NCBI RefSeq assembly: GCF_023716925.1
Contig: NZ_JAMQQG010000284.1
Coordinates: 1 to 54,061 of the forward strand
DNA length: 54,061 nucleotides
Source: Frankia sp. R82
Lineage (GTDB): Bacteria; Actinomycetota; Actinomycetes; Frankiales; Frankiaceae
Direction: 5' to 3'
Part shown: positions 819 to 41,125 of the stretch, one piece after another
How positions within the stretch are numbered: the first letter of the stretch is position 1
Layout of the letters: every line of letters begins with the position of its first letter
The notes under the pieces: generated by a model
What the model was told of the DNA's origin: nothing
Seen by the model: only the letters and a program-made list of their open reading frames with translations
Databases searched by the model: none
Translations under genes and position numbers: made by a program

Positions 819-2009
819 CTATTTGACGGCGTTCGCCGGGGTGGCGATGCCGTCAGGCGCAGCGGTCTGCAGGATCTGGGTCAGCTCGTCGGCAGTGGGC
901 CTGTGGCCGAAGTAGGTCTGATAGAAGCTGCTGGTGACCGAGCGAAGGTCGACGTCGGAAAACAGCGGCGGGTTGAGGACCTTGGCCACCCACTGCAGGT
1001 TGACCGCCTGCTCCGGGGTGTACTGACCCCACGGGTAGAGGCCACGCGGGTGGATGTACAGCTTGTTGTTCTTGACCGCGTTCAGGTCGTTCCAGCCCGA
1101 CAGCTTCGACAGCGCGTCCACGACCGAGGTGCCGGTGTTGGCGGCCAGGCCCTGATCACCGCCGGGGGTGGCGACGATCAGGTAGTCCGGGTTCCACTGG
1201 AGCACCTGCTCCATGGTGACCTTGACCCGGTTGCCCTTGATGTCCTTGGCCGCGTCCGTGCCGCCGGCCTTCTCGATCCACTGGTCGATCAGGGAGGCAC
1301 CGCCCTGGACCGTGATGTCGCTGCCGCCGGTGTAGGCCTCGATGAAGAGCACCTTCGGCTTCGCCGTTGCGCCCGAAAGCTTCGAGGACAGGGCGGCGGA
1401 GACCTTTTCGTAGTACGCGTTGTAGGCCTTCGCCTTCGCTACGGCTGGGCCACCGTAGGTCGCACCGGCGACCGTCATCGACTTCGTGATGTCGTCCAGC
1501 TTGGTGAAGAACATGCTGACGGCCGGGACCCCGGCGTTCTTGAAGGGGGTCGCCGTGTCGCCGCCGCTGATCAGGGACACCACATCGGGCTTGCGCTGGA
1601 GCAGCTGCTCCATGTTCACCATGCCACCGTTGCGGAACAGCTGCGGAACCTTGGCGATACCCGGCTGCACGGTCTGCATGAAAGGAATGGTGCTGACGTT
1701 CTGCGGAATCGCAACCAGCTTGTCGCCGACCCCAAGCATCACGTCGGTCACGGTATGCGCCGGGAACTGCTCGGCAATTTTGTTGATGGTTGTCGGCACT
1801 GTCACCTGCGCACCGGAAAGGTCCGTGACCACGTGGTTGGCCGGCGTGGGGCTGGCCGATGGGCTGGCCGAGGTGCTGTCGTCACCCGAGCTGGAACAGC
1901 CAGCCAGGGCGATCATGCCCGTGAGACCTATCGCAACTGCAATGCGCCGCGGACGGCGTATCGAACGCACTGGTCGTCCCCCCTGAACCGAGCGATTCCC
2001 ATCGCTCAC
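819..2009 (-). CDS. Iron-siderophore/cobalamin-type ABC transporter substrate-binding lipoprotein
   Basis: A 396-residue extracytoplasmic solute-binding protein of the TroA/FepB/BtuF type (periplasmic-binding-protein 2 fold). A basic N-terminus, a hydrophobic segment and a lipobox LAGC with the lipidated Cys at residue 38 show it is an exported lipoprotein. The mature part opens with a Ser/Asp/Thr linker, then the family pattern VVTDLSGAQVTVP and later KPDVV and WNPDYLIV strands. The GTG start at 2009 has no clear Shine-Dalgarno, but a good promoter ends about 15 bases upstream, which supports it. No permease or ATPase gene adjoins it, so it either works with components encoded elsewhere or is an orphan. 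Substrate (Fe3+-siderophore, haem or B12) cannot be told from sequence. Confidence 0.85.
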   Translation of the reverse strand: MSDGNRSVQGGRPVRSIRRPRRIAVAIGLTGMIALAGCSSSGDDSTSASPSASPTPANHVVTDLSGAQVTVPTTINKIAEQFPAHTVTDVMLGVGDKLVAIPQNVSTIPFMQTVQPGIAKVPQLFRNGGMVNMEQLLQRKPDVVSLISGGDTATPFKNAGVPAVSMFFTKLDDITKSMTVAGATYGGPAVAKAKAYNAYYEKVSAALSSKLSGATAKPKVLFIEAYTGGSDITVQGGASLIDQWIEKAGGTDAAKDIKGNRVKVTMEQVLQWNPDYLIVATPGGDQGLAANTGTSVVDALSKLSGWNDLNAVKNNKLYIHPRGLYPWGQYTPEQAVNLQWVAKVLNPPLFSDVDLRSVTSSFYQTYFGHRPTADELTQILQTAAPDGIATPANAVK

Positions 2010-2030
2010 GTCGAACCGATTGGTCGGCGA

Positions 2031-2060
2031 AAATTAGCAGCGGCCGAATCAGGGCGTCAA
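2031..2060 (-). promoter_or_regulatory. Sigma70-type promoter of the binding-protein gene
   Basis: On the minus strand, TTGACG (2055-2060) and TAATTT (2031-2036) are separated by 18 bases. The predicted transcript start is about 15 bases ahead of the GTG at 2009, giving a very short leader. No IdeR-type iron box was recognised over it. Confidence 0.6.
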
Positions 2061-2887
2061 GGCGGATTCTTCGCACTCGAAGAAAGATGACGAAACGGTG
2101 AACGCCCTGTTTCGACGACATCGGCCAGGCGCAGGACGGAAGGCCGTGGGTGTAGGGGCGGGAGCCGCCACCCCGACCCACGCCGCCATTCACTGACGGT
2201 CTCCGGATGCCATGAAGGCGTGCATTGGGATGCGAATAATTCGGGCAAAACTTCCACTCGGCACCCGGGTGGCCACGGATCCGAGGGCGACCCCGAAGCC
2301 GAGTGGGCCTCTCGGCCAGAACGATCAAGTCGAGCCGCTTTGTGTCAGACAGGTTACCAACAGAAGTTCGAGATATCCGCATATGCGGTCAGTTACGGAC
2401 GCTGCATCCGCAGATGCGTCGCACATAAGGATGGATTCCCGCGGATGCCGGTACGCCACCGCCCGCCACCCAACCTGCAAGACGACCGCGGTCACCCTAT
2501 TTGATCGCTAAAAGAAACATCAATACTACGCTGCGTCAGGAGTGACGGAGGTCTGGCCGCCCGTTTCGGACCATCGGAGCAGAGATGGAGACGGGTACCG
2601 GGGCCCAGGCAGGCGCCGGAACCGGAACGCAGGGATGCCCGCCGGCCGCTGCCGCGGTGGAGATCGGGACGTTCTCGGGCTCACCCGGGCAGCCGTACAC
2701 CCGCCGCGCGGCGTCCAGAAGTCTGGTCCCAGGGACGGAAACAACAGCTGCGCGGTGGGCCCACCGGCCAGCCGCAAAGAATTTTTCGGGCTTTTCAGGG
2801 ATTCTTTCCGAAGCCATTGGAGGCCGTCGGAGGTCGCCCCGGTCCACCGTTTCCTGCAGAGGGGACGCCGCAGCCGAAGGTCGCGAT
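2061..2887. other. Long non-coding region with palindromes
   Basis: Over 800 bases without a convincing gene and with visibly lower GC than the surrounding coding DNA. It contains a perfect palindrome CCGCATATGCGG (2377-2388), an inverted repeat GCATC-cgca-GATGC (2404-2417 with flanks), and an inverted repeat AAAGAAT (2776-2782)/ATTCTTT (2801-2807) just beyond the end of the GH6 gene. The last could form a weak stem-loop after that operon. The palindromes are possible regulator sites. No riboswitch consensus was recognised. Confidence 0.5.
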
Positions 2888-4012
2888 TCAGCCGACGGCG
2901 TTCTGGACGAGCTCCGCGGCGGCCTGCGGCCACCACTCCCCCGCCTTCGGATTACCGCGGTTACATTCCCCGTCGCTGGCCCCGGGAGTTTTGATCCACA
3001 GAAAGGCATCGGCATGCGGAAAACCGGTGCTGGTGGTGGGCTTGGTACCGAGCCCACGACCAGGCGGGTTGCACCACGGGTCCGAGATGCCGGTTGCCGG
3101 GCCCCGACCGTTGCGGGACGTGTCGATAACGTAGTGAGCGCCGCCGAGCAGACGGGAAAGAACCTCGCCGCGGGCCGCCTCATCCGCGGTGGCGTAGTAG
3201 TTCGACACGTTCACCGCGAATCCGCGGGCGTGCGCCACGCCGGCCTGCGCCAGGCGGTGGGCCATCTCCACGGGGTCGGTCCAGCCGCAGTTCGCGCCGT
3301 CGAGGTAGACGCTGGTCGCCGGCAGGGCGCCATAGGCGTCGACCGCGTCACGCAGCAGGGCGTAGCGTTCCGCTGCCTTGCCGGCGTCGAGTTCGTTGAT
3401 CTGGCCGAGCGCGTCGGGTTCGAGCACGATGACGGCCCGTGCGCCGCCGATGCCGGCCGCGACCTTCGCGGTGAACTGGCGGTACTCCGCGGCGTTGGGC
3501 AGGCCGCCCGCGGAGTACTGGCCCACATCCCGGTAGGGGATGGCGTACACCATGAACACGGCGGTGGCGCCGGCGGCCTGCGCGGCGGCGGCCCGGGCGT
3601 GTACCTCCCCGATGACGTCGCCGATCCAGTCGCCGACCGGGAAGGCGGTCGACGTCTGGACCAGCGGTGCGATCGTGCTCGCCTCGCCGGGGTGGGACCC
3701 GGCGCGCTGCGCTGCCTGGCTGCTCGGGTCGACCAGGAACGGCTCCTGCGGCGCCCGGGAGGACGCGCCGTCCCCGTCCGGAGTAGCCACGGTCGGCTCG
3801 TTGACGGTGTCGGCTCCGCCCTGCGGGCACCGGGTGGGGTCCGGGGCGGGTACCGCCGCGGCGGCGGACGCGCTGCCGGAGCGACCCGGGTCGCCGCTGT
3901 GGTCCTTTCCACCACCGAGATCGCAGGCAGCCAACACGGCGACAAGGGCCAGGACGATGCCGATCCGGCCGGCACGCTCGGCGGCCACGGGCAGCAACCT
4001 GGATGTCGGCAC
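2888..4012 (-). CDS. cslZ: GH6 endoglucanase/cellobiohydrolase-like lipoprotein (CslZ-like)
   Basis: A 374-residue glycoside hydrolase family 6 protein, predicted to cut beta-1,4-glucan outside the membrane. A lipobox AVLAAC puts the lipidated Cys at residue 30, followed by a flexible linker to about residue 90 and the GH6 barrel. Signature 1 is VYAIPYRDVGQ, where D162 corresponds to the conserved RD aspartate; signature 2 is VIVLEPDAL, where D200 is the catalytic acid. The GTG start at 4012 has GAGAGGA seven bases upstream. It lies 86 bases downstream of the galactose-oxidase-like gene. In Streptomyces the order cslA-glxA-cslZ encodes a glucan synthase, a copper oxidase and a GH6 enzyme working at hyphal tips, and the same order here supports the same role. 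Confidence 0.88.
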   Translation of the reverse strand: MPTSRLLPVAAERAGRIGIVLALVAVLAACDLGGGKDHSGDPGRSGSASAAAAVPAPDPTRCPQGGADTVNEPTVATPDGDGASSRAPQEPFLVDPSSQAAQRAGSHPGEASTIAPLVQTSTAFPVGDWIGDVIGEVHARAAAAQAAGATAVFMVYAIPYRDVGQYSAGGLPNAAEYRQFTAKVAAGIGGARAVIVLEPDALGQINELDAGKAAERYALLRDAVDAYGALPATSVYLDGANCGWTDPVEMAHRLAQAGVAHARGFAVNVSNYYATADEAARGEVLSRLLGGAHYVIDTSRNGRGPATGISDPWCNPPGRGLGTKPTTSTGFPHADAFLWIKTPGASDGECNRGNPKAGEWWPQAAAELVQNAVG

Positions 4013-9673: not shown

Positions 9674-10708
<1,035 letters not shown>

Positions 10709-24611: not shown

Positions 24612-25415
24612 TCAGCGCCCGACGCGGCCGGCCGGGTGGGCGCCGGCGGCGACCAGGTCGGCGACCGTCTGTCGGGGGTCGCCGGTGACGGCGGCCTCGC
24701 CGACCAGCACCGCGTCGGCCCCGGAGGCCGCATATGTGCGCAGGTCGTGGGGCCCGCGCACGCCGGACTCGGCCACCTTCAGCACCCCGGACGGGATCAT
24801 CGGCGCCAACCGGGCGAAGGTGCTTCGGTCGATCTCGAGGGTGCGCAGGTCCCGGGCGTTCACGCCGACCAGGCGGGCGTCGGCGTCCAGCGCGCGGACG
24901 AGTTCGGCCTCGTCGTGCACCTCGACCAGCGCGGTCATCCCGAGGGACTCGATGCGCTCGCGCAGGCCGACCAGGCGAGGCTGGTCAAGCGCCGCGACGA
25001 TCAACAGGACGATGTCCGCGCCGTGCGCGCGGGCCTCGAAGACCTGGTACGGCGAGACGACGAAGTCCTTGCGCAGCAGCGGGACGTCGACCGCACGGCG
25101 CACCGCGTCGAGATCCGCGAGCGAGCCGCCGAACCGGCGCTGCTCGGTGAGCACGCTGATGGCGGCGGCACCGCCCGCCTCGTAGTCCACCGCGAGAGCG
25201 GCTGGATCCGTGATCGCCGCCAGGCTGCCCTTGGACGGCGAACGACGCTTGACCTCGGCGATCACCGACACCGGTGAGTCATGGAAGACGGCCAGCGCGT
25301 CCCGGGGGTCCGGGACGCGCTCGACGCGCCGTTTGAGGTCGTCGAGGGAGGTCTGCTGTTCACGCACGGCAAGGTCTGACCGGACCCCGTCGAGGATGTC
25401 GTCGAGGACGCTCAT
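24612..25415 (-). CDS. trpC: Indole-3-glycerol phosphate synthase
   Basis: A 267-residue TIM-barrel enzyme that closes CdRP to indole-3-glycerol phosphate. The signature [12 protein letters not shown] contains E54 and K56, LLRKDFVV follows, and LVGVNARDL and AESGV close the active site. The frame stays open well upstream, but the product starting with [10 protein letters not shown] (ATG at 25415) matches the family length and start. The block ahead of it is broken by the oppositely oriented Cys-repeat gene, so trpC probably needs a promoter within 25416-25670 rather than relying only on readthrough from hisI-trpE. Confidence 0.96.
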
Positions 25416-25641
25416 CGACCCGTGCTCGCGGCTTTCGCGCTCATGCCGCCGATGGTAGGCCAGGTCACCGACGTGGGCCCCACGCACCCACACCTTGCTA
25501 CGTGCCGCGACCATCCACCCCCACCTCCGAGGGCCGCCCTCGACCGCGGACGTCATCCACCCGGCCCGCTTCGGCGACCTGTCCAGCACGGCACGCCACG
25601 CCACCGGCGCGCCATGCTGGCCGACCACCCCGGCAATCCCG

Positions 25642-25647
25642 TATAGT
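25642..25647 (+). promoter_or_regulatory. -10 element of the Cys-repeat gene
   Basis: TATAGT lies 37 bases upstream of the ATG at 25679 and directly abuts the SOS-type box. No clear -35 hexamer is found 17-18 bases upstream, where the bases read near GGCCGA. It is the most A/T-rich point in several hundred bases. Confidence 0.55.
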
Positions 25648-25661
25648 CGAACACACGTTCG
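25648..25661 (+). promoter_or_regulatory. LexA-type SOS box
   Basis: CGAAC-acac-GTTCG is a perfect ten-base match to the dyad core of the LexA (DinR) box known from Bacillus and actinobacteria (CGAAC-N4-GTTCG). It is preceded by T, as in the extended TCGAAC form. It lies right after the -10, over the expected transcription start, a place where a repressor would block initiation. It is 17 bases upstream of the start codon of the Cys-repeat gene. Confidence 0.72.
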
Positions 25662-25674
25662 GAAACGAGGGAGA

Positions 25675-25758
25675 ATGCATGAACGGATGCATGAACGGAT
25701 GCATGAACGAATGTTTGGACGGATGCCTGGACGGATGTATAGACGGATGCCTGAACGC
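25675..25758 (+). repeat. Seven diverged 12-bp tandem repeats, coding
   Basis: Units start at 25675, 25687, 25699, 25711, 25723, 25735 and 25747 with consensus atgcatgaacgg. The first two are identical and the rest carry one to several changes. Being 12 bases, each unit is four codons, so gain or loss of a unit would not shift the frame. The repeats encode the Cys-rich N-terminus of the gene at 25679. Confidence 0.93.
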
Positions 25759-26050
25759 CCGCCAGGTCCTGGTCCCGCCACTGTCGGGTTGGTCGTCCGT
25801 CGGCGCACGGGTGCCTGAACGGCCCACGGTTGCGCCGGTCGGGCTGCCAGCCAGCGGCCGGGAGCAAGAGCCGCTCGAGCGGCTGCTCCGCTGCCTGGAC
25901 CGGATGGATGCGCTGGTCACTCTGCTGGAGGCCGATCTACGTCGTCAGCAGGACCTGCTCGCCTCGCTCACGACTCCGGAGCGGGTGTCCGGGCCGCTGG
26001 GAGGCGGCGGGTGGGCAGGGCCGCCGGGTGGTCACGGCGGATCCCGGTGA
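25679..26050 (+). CDS. Small Cys-repeat protein with SOS-type promoter, family not recognised
   Basis: A 123-residue product. Residues 1-26 are a tetrapeptide repeat, [MLI]-[ND]-[GE]-C, placing Cys at 4, 8, 12, 16, 20 and 24. Residues 62-102 form an amphipathic helix (motif [19 protein letters not shown]) with one more Cys at 72; the end is a Gly-rich tail. AGGGAG lies five bases from the ATG; a second ATG at 25675 would be too close to it. Among the repeats, changes are synonymous (TGC/TGT) at Cys and conservative (Met/Leu/Ile; Asn/Asp) elsewhere in this frame only. It runs opposite to the trp genes and ends directly against the stop of the trp-associated membrane gene. The SOS box suggests DNA-damage induction. 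I do not know its function; metal or redox chemistry at the Cys ladder is a guess. Confidence 0.72.
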
Positions 26051-26722
26051 TCAGGTGGGGTCGTGGCCCCGCTCGATCGCGTCCCAGGCGTCGACCGGCC
26101 GGGCGTCGCGAGCCTGGTAGCGGCCCGACATCGCCGGCCATCGGCGTCCGCGCGCGGCGGCGAGCGCGCCGGCGGCGGTGAGCAGCAGGCCGCCGAACGC
26201 CGCCAGCCACGGTGCCGCTGTGCGGTGTACGGCGGTGATGTCCGCCGGGCCGCCGACGGACAGCTGGCGCACGCTGTCGGTGCGGCGCAGCGCGGGCGTC
26301 GGGTCGAGGCCGATCCGCAGCACCACATAGACGATGCCGATCCCGGCCACGATGGCCAGCAGACCCACAGCGGCGCGCCCGATACCGCGGGCGGCCACGA
26401 TCGCCACGGTGGCAGCCAACCCGACCAGGGCGAGAGCGGTCGCTGCCGGGGCAAGTGTGGAGCCGGTCCAGTGGGTGGCCAGCGGCGCGGCCACGGCTGC
26501 ACCGTCACTGGCGGTGTGCGGCGCGCCGACCCTGGCGGAGACCCAGGTCGCCGCCCCACACACGAGTACCAGTCCCGCGCCGAGCAGACAGCCGAGCACG
26601 GCCAGACCGCGTTCCCGCCGCCCGGCGCGGGCGGCGTCGCCCGCGCCCGGCGCAGAACCGGGCGACCCGGGGAGCCCGGGCGTCGCGTCGGGGGACGCGG
26701 GGCCCGAAGAGGAGGAGGTCAT
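26051..26722 (-). CDS. Trp biosynthesis-associated membrane protein (Trp_oprn_chp)
   Basis: A 223-residue protein with four predicted membrane helices: GAGLVLVCGAATWVSA, ALALVGLAATVAIVAA, GLLAIVAGIGIVYVVLRIG and AAFGGLLLTAAGALAAA. This family lies in actinobacterial trp operons and its function is not known. The ATG at 26722 overlaps the trpE stop (ATGA). It ends one base beyond the stop of the oppositely oriented Cys-repeat gene, so the two 3' ends meet exactly. Long Ala/Gly/Pro-rich N-terminus (about 35 residues) precedes the first helix. Confidence 0.88.
   Translation of the reverse strand: MTSSSSGPASPDATPGLPGSPGSAPGAGDAARAGRRERGLAVLGCLLGAGLVLVCGAATWVSARVGAPHTASDGAAVAAPLATHWTGSTLAPAATALALVGLAATVAIVAARGIGRAAVGLLAIVAGIGIVYVVLRIGLDPTPALRRTDSVRQLSVGGPADITAVHRTAAPWLAAFGGLLLTAAGALAAARGRRWPAMSGRYQARDARPVDAWDAIERGHDPT

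Positions 26723-40929: not shown

Positions 40930-41125
<196 letters not shown>

Follow-up and report, generated by a model that had tools for sequence, protein, structure and literature searches.

A conserved LexA-boxed gene beside trpC in Frankia: a candidate SOS protein with a single predicted coiled-coil helix

Frankia is a genus of soil bacteria with many members that carry out nitrogen fixation in plant roots. In Frankia sp. R82, a stretch of 54,061 nucleotides (contig NZ_JAMQQG010000284.1, referred to here as the window) carries a short open reading frame between trpC and a gene for a tryptophan-associated membrane protein, which begins with six regularly spaced cysteines and stands directly behind a promoter with a LexA box. 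This arrangement raises the question of whether the frame is a genuine protein gene of the SOS response and, if so, whether the cysteine ladder or some other segment is the working part of its product. The elements on which the original prediction was built, namely TATAGT, the LexA box, AGGGAG, an ATG, a 123-codon frame and cysteines at residues 4, 8, 12, 16, 20 and 24, were all confirmed by direct reading, and are placed as follows.

24612-25415, minus strand: trpC (indole-3-glycerol phosphate synthase; PF00218, E 3.1e-75), divergent neighbour
25642-25647, plus strand: -10 hexamer TATAGT, with no gap to the LexA box
25648-25661, plus strand: LexA/SOS box CGAACACACGTTCG, over the expected transcription start
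25668-25673, plus strand: ribosome-binding site AGGGAG, followed after a 5-nt gap by the ATG at 25679
25675-25757, plus strand: 12-nt tandem array encoding the cysteine ladder (residues 1-24), 6.9 copies at 80% match, in the window's genome only
25679-26050, plus strand: small SOS-box protein gene, 123 codons including TGA, with orthologues in the same place and core pN/pS below 1
25865-25972, plus strand: conserved core (residues 63-98), predicted 36-residue amphipathic helix with Leu/Met spaced three to four residues apart, defined by pN/pS, invariant residues and AlphaFold
26051-26722, minus strand: tryptophan-associated membrane protein gene (PF09534, E 4.8e-39), convergent neighbour

Position, promoter and LexA boxes

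The start codon of trpC and the stop codon of the PF09534 gene are separated by a gap of 635 bp (25416-26050), in which the frame is wholly contained; the stop codon of the frame (TGA, 26048-26050) adjoins the reversed stop codon of the PF09534 gene. As the frame is encoded on the strand opposite to both neighbours, it is not a structural gene of the trp operon. Its original description as antisense to that operon holds with respect to strand, but not with respect to overlap, as the frame touches no trp coding sequence.

The other side of the same gap has features of its own. On the minus strand upstream of trpC (25412-25457), TACCAT is followed after 7 nt by the ATG of a 10-codon frame, the stop codon of which overlaps the trpC start (ATGA). 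A similar short frame precedes trpC at most loci of Frankia (g1), g3 and g6, and at both re-read loci of the sister genus g2. In G007 and G003 this ATG runs in frame into trpC (MTATAASAGRKNVLAEILDG...), and it is therefore probably a real leaderless start. The 10-codon frame lacks Trp codons and is thus not a classical attenuator; the arrangement suggests that trpCBA has its own promoter. Elsewhere, the window contains two low-complexity stretches, a perfect 6-nt array of GCTCTG (11.3 copies, 10588-10655) and a C run of 59 nt (93% match, 40946-41004).

The box at 25648-25661 matches the actinobacterial LexA consensus, taken here from Streptomyces venezuelae, for which PMC9380542 gives tCGAAC-N4-GNNCGa. 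It is the only perfect LexA box in the window, among 11 matches at one mismatch or fewer, compared with a mean of 2.97 such matches when the window was shuffled (n=100). Across the 6.9-Mb genome from which the window derives (G000) there are 33 perfect sites, against three for a backwards control pattern. The ten fixed bases (CGAAC-N4-GTTCG) are identical in all 20 orthologous promoters, in a comparison which was anchored on the box and from which no orthologue was excluded for want of one. The flanking sequence (-60 to -11) has a mean pairwise identity of 0.44 over all 20 promoters; among the Frankia promoters the value is 0.53, and among those of g2 it is 0.70. The -10 hexamer reads TATANT in 13 of 13 Frankia orthologues, TATCAT in six of six from g2, and TACGAT in G016, and in all 20 it adjoins a box that lies over the expected start site; by eye, a TTGACG -35 element is clear only in g2. 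Downstream, AGGGAG-N5-ATG/GTG is found in 11 of the 13 Frankia orthologues, G004 and G010 being the exceptions.

The combined -10 and box pattern TATNNTCGAACNNNNGTTCG was sought in all 13 Frankia genomes, in each of which the matches include the site between trpC and the PF09534 gene. It occurs once in 12 genomes and twice in G010, where the additional site precedes a 510-codon frame of the DUF222 family (Pfam); the control pattern scored zero. In 12 of 13 genomes, then, the only perfect LexA box abutted by TATNNT is that in the promoter of the small SOS-box gene. Taken together, the conservation and rarity of this promoter strongly support control of the gene by LexA as part of the SOS response.

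In G000, lexA itself was identified, and some 260 bp upstream of it lies a perfect box; the same box accompanies known SOS genes in this one genome. Frames near the other 32 perfect sites were listed mechanically, and nine of them, from eight sites, were run against Pfam, yielding RecA, Ku, DnaB, a SAV_6107-like HEPN protein, two DUF222/HNH proteins and one Mutator transposase. At one locus (L082) the first two frames had no Pfam match, and another frame there is a DUF222 protein (E 1.5e-9). Perfect boxes thereby stand before or over the starts of recA, ku, dnaB, the SAV_6107-like HEPN gene and three DUF222 genes, overlapping the first start codon of the frame in the cases of ku and the HEPN gene. 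Of the other 24 perfect sites, some fall within long frames and could be coincidental. Two of these loci deserve mention in their own right. At L068 (G000:C199:8507, 2008-3999), a perfect box lies 37 nt before a frame reaching into dnaB. This dnaB contains an intein-like insertion of the LAGLIDADG/homing-endonuclease type; the replicative helicase is possibly under SOS control in this genome. At L060 (G000:C74:5258), the perfect box at the ku start codon is accompanied by a divergent LigD primase-polymerase gene (PF21686, E 2.2e-78), an arrangement that may place non-homologous end joining under SOS control in this Frankia.

Orthologues and distribution

Orthologues were sought by a protein search of 58 genomes, followed by tblastn on fetched loci. 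In 13 of 13 Frankia genomes (the window's own included) and in six of six genomes of g2, the gene was found in the interval that separates trpC from the PF09534 gene, encoded on the other strand; together with G016 (g5), these genomes make up the total of 20. tblastn placed it in 11 of the 12 other Frankia genomes, and the copy in G010 became apparent once its PF09534 locus was fetched. The versions in g2 are longer (213-274 aa by the chosen starts), and share the position, TATCAT and the box. G016 has a distant, shorter version beside the PF09534 gene, with a box, in a 3.6-kb locus without trpC. Its homology rests on position, box and a short EADL-R motif; used as a query, its protein reaches the g2 core at no better than E 0.3 (G025) and 0.9 (G019), and by sequence its membership of the family is weak. 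The original prediction had staked itself on relatives with the same frame and an intact box, and finds both in all 13 Frankia and all six g2 genomes, and, more distantly, in G016.

Beyond these genomes the gene becomes elusive. tblastn with the window protein did not find it at the trp/PF09534 loci of eight of eight g6 and five of five g3 genomes, and it is therefore dispensable in close relatives; no box-like site was seen at the PF09534 locus in any of the eight g6 genomes or in four of the five from g3. The fifth, G014 (L034, intergenic position 441), keeps TACCAT and CGAACGCGGGTTCG at the same locus with no recognisable core helix, possibly as a relic promoter or the site of a replaced gene. 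PF09534 matched no convincing trp locus in g4 and g7. In a FastTree phylogeny of the TrpC, TrpE and PF09534 proteins, from which G015 and G023 were left out and which was rooted on one weak sequence from a g7 genome, Frankia and g2 are sisters (support 0.99), joined next by g6 and then g3, and G016 is the first to branch. This distribution fits either loss of an old gene from g6 and g3, or a separate origin of the G016 version.

Wider searches did not extend the family. A pattern scan of the genomes of 84,980 species, with closer alignment, confirmed nine loci, all in Frankia; these records (including Candidatus Frankia nodulisporulans AgTrS, F. torreyi CpI1 and Frankia sp. QA3) hold copies that are letter-identical to nine of the genus orthologues. 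A hidden Markov model of the 43-aa core found matches at E up to 0.05 in 41 of 296 genomes of the class, in a search that scored at most 24 candidates per genome, such that weak relatives may escape it. The strong matches (E 4.2e-16 or better), in 12 Frankia and four g2 genomes, are so by construction, because all are in the model or closely resemble its rows. No convincing match outside the Frankia family emerged among the 296 genomes: the best, in G055 (E 2.2e-5), covers columns 11-36 within a 706-aa frame, and was set aside as a generic coiled coil. The window protein has no match in Pfam (E up to 1), and three orthologues each have none in NCBIfam, PHROGs or PADLOC. Eighteen core segments gave only weak matches to eukaryotic coiled coils in Pfam (best E 0.026), PDB sequences gave nothing meaningful (best E 0.0095 over 22 residues), Foldseek against PDB returned a single match at E 8.4, and phage records held nothing matching the core. 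Among the matches listed in literature searches on Frankia or actinobacterial LexA, SOS and division inhibitors, subscription papers aside, no title concerned this gene. These comparisons establish the SOS-box gene as genuine and conserved and, within the reach of the searches, undescribed: an apparent orphan member of the LexA regulon.

The conserved helix and the cysteine ladder

Which part of the product matters is best judged from how the frame evolves. We calculated pN/pS for 13 chosen pairs of Frankia orthologues (out of 78), taking residues 63-101 of the window protein as the core. Eleven pairs have core ratios of 0.08-0.35, and G007 paired with G004 and with G000 gives 0.46 and 0.55; outside the core the ratio is 0.66-0.98 in all 13. 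Differences at the first, second and third codon positions, over six pairs, number 10, 10 and 41 in the core, and 63, 71 and 77 in the rest. The frame is intact in all Frankia orthologues, at lengths of 94-133 aa. Low core ratios, codon-position bias, an intact frame and the AGGGAG-N5-start arrangement together show that the frame codes for a real protein, in which the helix is the constrained part. By these measures, a helix of about 40 residues is under purifying selection and the remainder is near-neutral. The same evidence bears on a reading in which there is no protein gene at all, and RNA from the LexA promoter runs against transcription of trpE-PF09534 with the frame being incidental. 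The convergence of the frame with the PF09534 gene, stop codon to stop codon, would suit such an antisense role; the codon-position bias and low pN/pS of the core, the start arrangement in 11 of 13 orthologues and a frame that stays open across 13 genomes speak against it. We rejected antisense RNA as the sole product on the codon evidence, and consider it scarcely credible.

Structure prediction agrees on where the conserved part lies. The AlphaFold model, from 10 sequences, is of low confidence overall (mean pLDDT 63.7, pTM 0.34), and contains one confident helix at residues 63-98 (block pLDDT 79-98, against 48-56 in other blocks); within the cysteine ladder there is a four-residue helical turn at 12-15, with pLDDT of about 48. 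By eye, Leu, Met or Val at positions 66, 69, 73, 76, 79/80, 83, 87, 94 and 97 follow coiled-coil spacing. Among the invariant residues of the core are E84, D86 and R89 (window numbering). The flanks of the core, modelled with low confidence, are rich in Pro, Ala and Gly in most orthologues, and a short N-terminal motif, roughly M-D/E-T-R-x4-P, is recognisable in most. Hydropathy indicates no membrane segment, the highest 19-residue value (KD19) among the 20 proteins being 1.23. A lone predicted helix identifies no partner. The best reading of the product is as a small, soluble, orphan coiled-coil protein under putative LexA control, and we think it very probable that the gene is coding and controlled by LexA, and that the helix is the part of its product that does the work.

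The cysteine ladder, by comparison, is found in one of the 20 orthologues, that of the window. The other 19 carry 0-3 cysteines in total (the G016 protein being cut to 62 aa in this count, as in the hydropathy analysis), and five (G007, G003, G028, G013 and G025) have none. G006, the nearest relative in the tree, begins METHQILIPPLSGW and has no ladder, and G004, a close relative, has a different N-terminal repeat, METHLTDTHLTETRQ. In g2, the sister genomes G028 and G013 are set apart by a single in-frame TDRV unit of 12 nt immediately after the start codon, a repeat of the same unit length as the window's array but of another sequence; the orthologues at loci L032 and L033 start with MTDRVTDRVTDQ in the one and MTDRVTDQ in the other. 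From the G004 repeat and the G028/G013 difference it follows that the N-terminus gains small in-frame repeats in several lineages.

The original prediction held that the frame keeps its cysteines as the repeats diverge, and that changes in the other frames are radical. The seven units of the array differ from their consensus by 11 changes, of which nine are nonsynonymous and two synonymous, and both changes at cysteine codons are synonymous (TGC/TGT). The cysteines are indeed kept; as evidence of selection this is weak, given the nine nonsynonymous changes and a random-placement null in which, among stop-free cases, all six cysteines survive in 8.7% (2.7% when the six hydrophobic residues are also required). 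The ladder was also to be the defining feature of the protein, with a possible metal or redox role. On that view, the C-x3-C ladder would bind metal or form disulfides and be the working part of a metal- or redox-responsive SOS protein, and the register of six cysteines across residues 4-24 and the silent changes at their codons count in its favour. Against it stand the absence of the ladder from the other 19 orthologues, nearest relatives included, the predominance of nonsynonymous changes between units, the freely evolving region in which it sits, and the different short in-frame repeats that G004 and G028 carry in this position. Occurrence in one of 20 orthologues, within a region at pN/pS 0.66-0.98, rules the ladder out as a family feature, and for the same reasons a metal or redox role through it cannot be the function of the family; membership of the metallothionein-like Cys-rich metal-binding proteins was likewise rejected, the cysteine pattern being unconserved. 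We therefore regard a metal- or redox-responsive ladder as highly improbable. Judged by comparison of orthologues, the ladder is an expansion of the N-terminus that arose by slippage in one species and lies outside the mechanism of the family, although it could be active in something within that species. A striking repeat in a single genome can mislead, and comparison shifts interest from the ladder to the adjacent helix.

Candidate roles and known systems

If the helix is the working part, a simple sequence of events can be proposed. LexA bound to the box over the start site would block initiation; upon DNA damage, RecA-driven cleavage of LexA would release this repression; the helix would then pair, either with another copy of itself or with a partner's helix, and the short-lived product might in this way adapt or inhibit a protein of the cell cycle or of repair. 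The single most likely role, though a tentative one, is that of a soluble SOS checkpoint factor acting on division or replication.

In its most specific form, this would be a soluble inhibitor of cell division resembling SulA or DivS, which stops Z-ring formation via the coiled coil, a possibility that we hold as tentatively as the checkpoint role itself. SOS-box control, small size, lack of a membrane segment and one strongly kept helix are all compatible with it. So is the statement, in PMC9380542, that Streptomyces has no clear homologues of known SOS division regulators, from which a mechanism yet to be identified is expected there. The protein, however, matches no family in sequence, and was not found at the trp loci of g6 and g3; moreover, in G005 a LysM gene (PF01476, E 3.3e-5) is already divergent from lexA, and the usual slot of an SOS division inhibitor may therefore be filled. 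After the checkpoint role, our next choice, somewhat more doubtful, is that the protein modulates a factor of repair or replication (RecA, DnaB or a translesion polymerase) in the manner of DinI or RecX, with a short helix that docks on its partner. SOS control would suit this role, as would the box shared with recA, ku and dnaB in the same genome; neither a sequence nor a fold match supports it, and no conserved clamp-binding motif was seen by eye. A composite reading, in which a new lineage-specific SOS effector, mostly unstructured around one coiled-coil helix, acts as a checkpoint or repair adaptor in filamentous nitrogen-fixing actinobacteria and in one species has a functional C-x3-C ladder linking the response to the state of metals or redox, strikes us as a very long shot.

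The preferred reading, a LexA-controlled protein working through its helix, can be set beside three known systems. DinI and RecX are small soluble SOS modulators of RecA. The Frankia protein is likewise small, soluble and, by prediction, SOS-induced; it differs in having no family match, and in being mostly structureless, as predicted, around a single helix. With the actinobacterial LexA regulon, as described for S. venezuelae in PMC9380542, it shares a box that fits the motif and abuts the -10 element, alongside boxed recA, ku and others, and it departs from that regulon in being a small gene with no named family, an orphan added to the Frankia SOS response and conserved across two genera. 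The SOS division inhibitors DivS, ChiZ/Rv2719c, YneA and SulA (PMC3989709) are similarly small and DNA-damage induced, as the box predicts for the Frankia gene. The same paper describes LysM domains in YneA and ChiZ, and lexA close to SOS-induced genes; the Frankia protein has neither the LysM domain of YneA and ChiZ nor the membrane segment of YneA, and no Pfam match. For Streptomyces, PMC9380542 describes the mechanism that holds back division after DNA damage as unidentified. In Frankia, a direct and testable candidate for such a role is this small SOS protein, which is conserved and lacks relatives.
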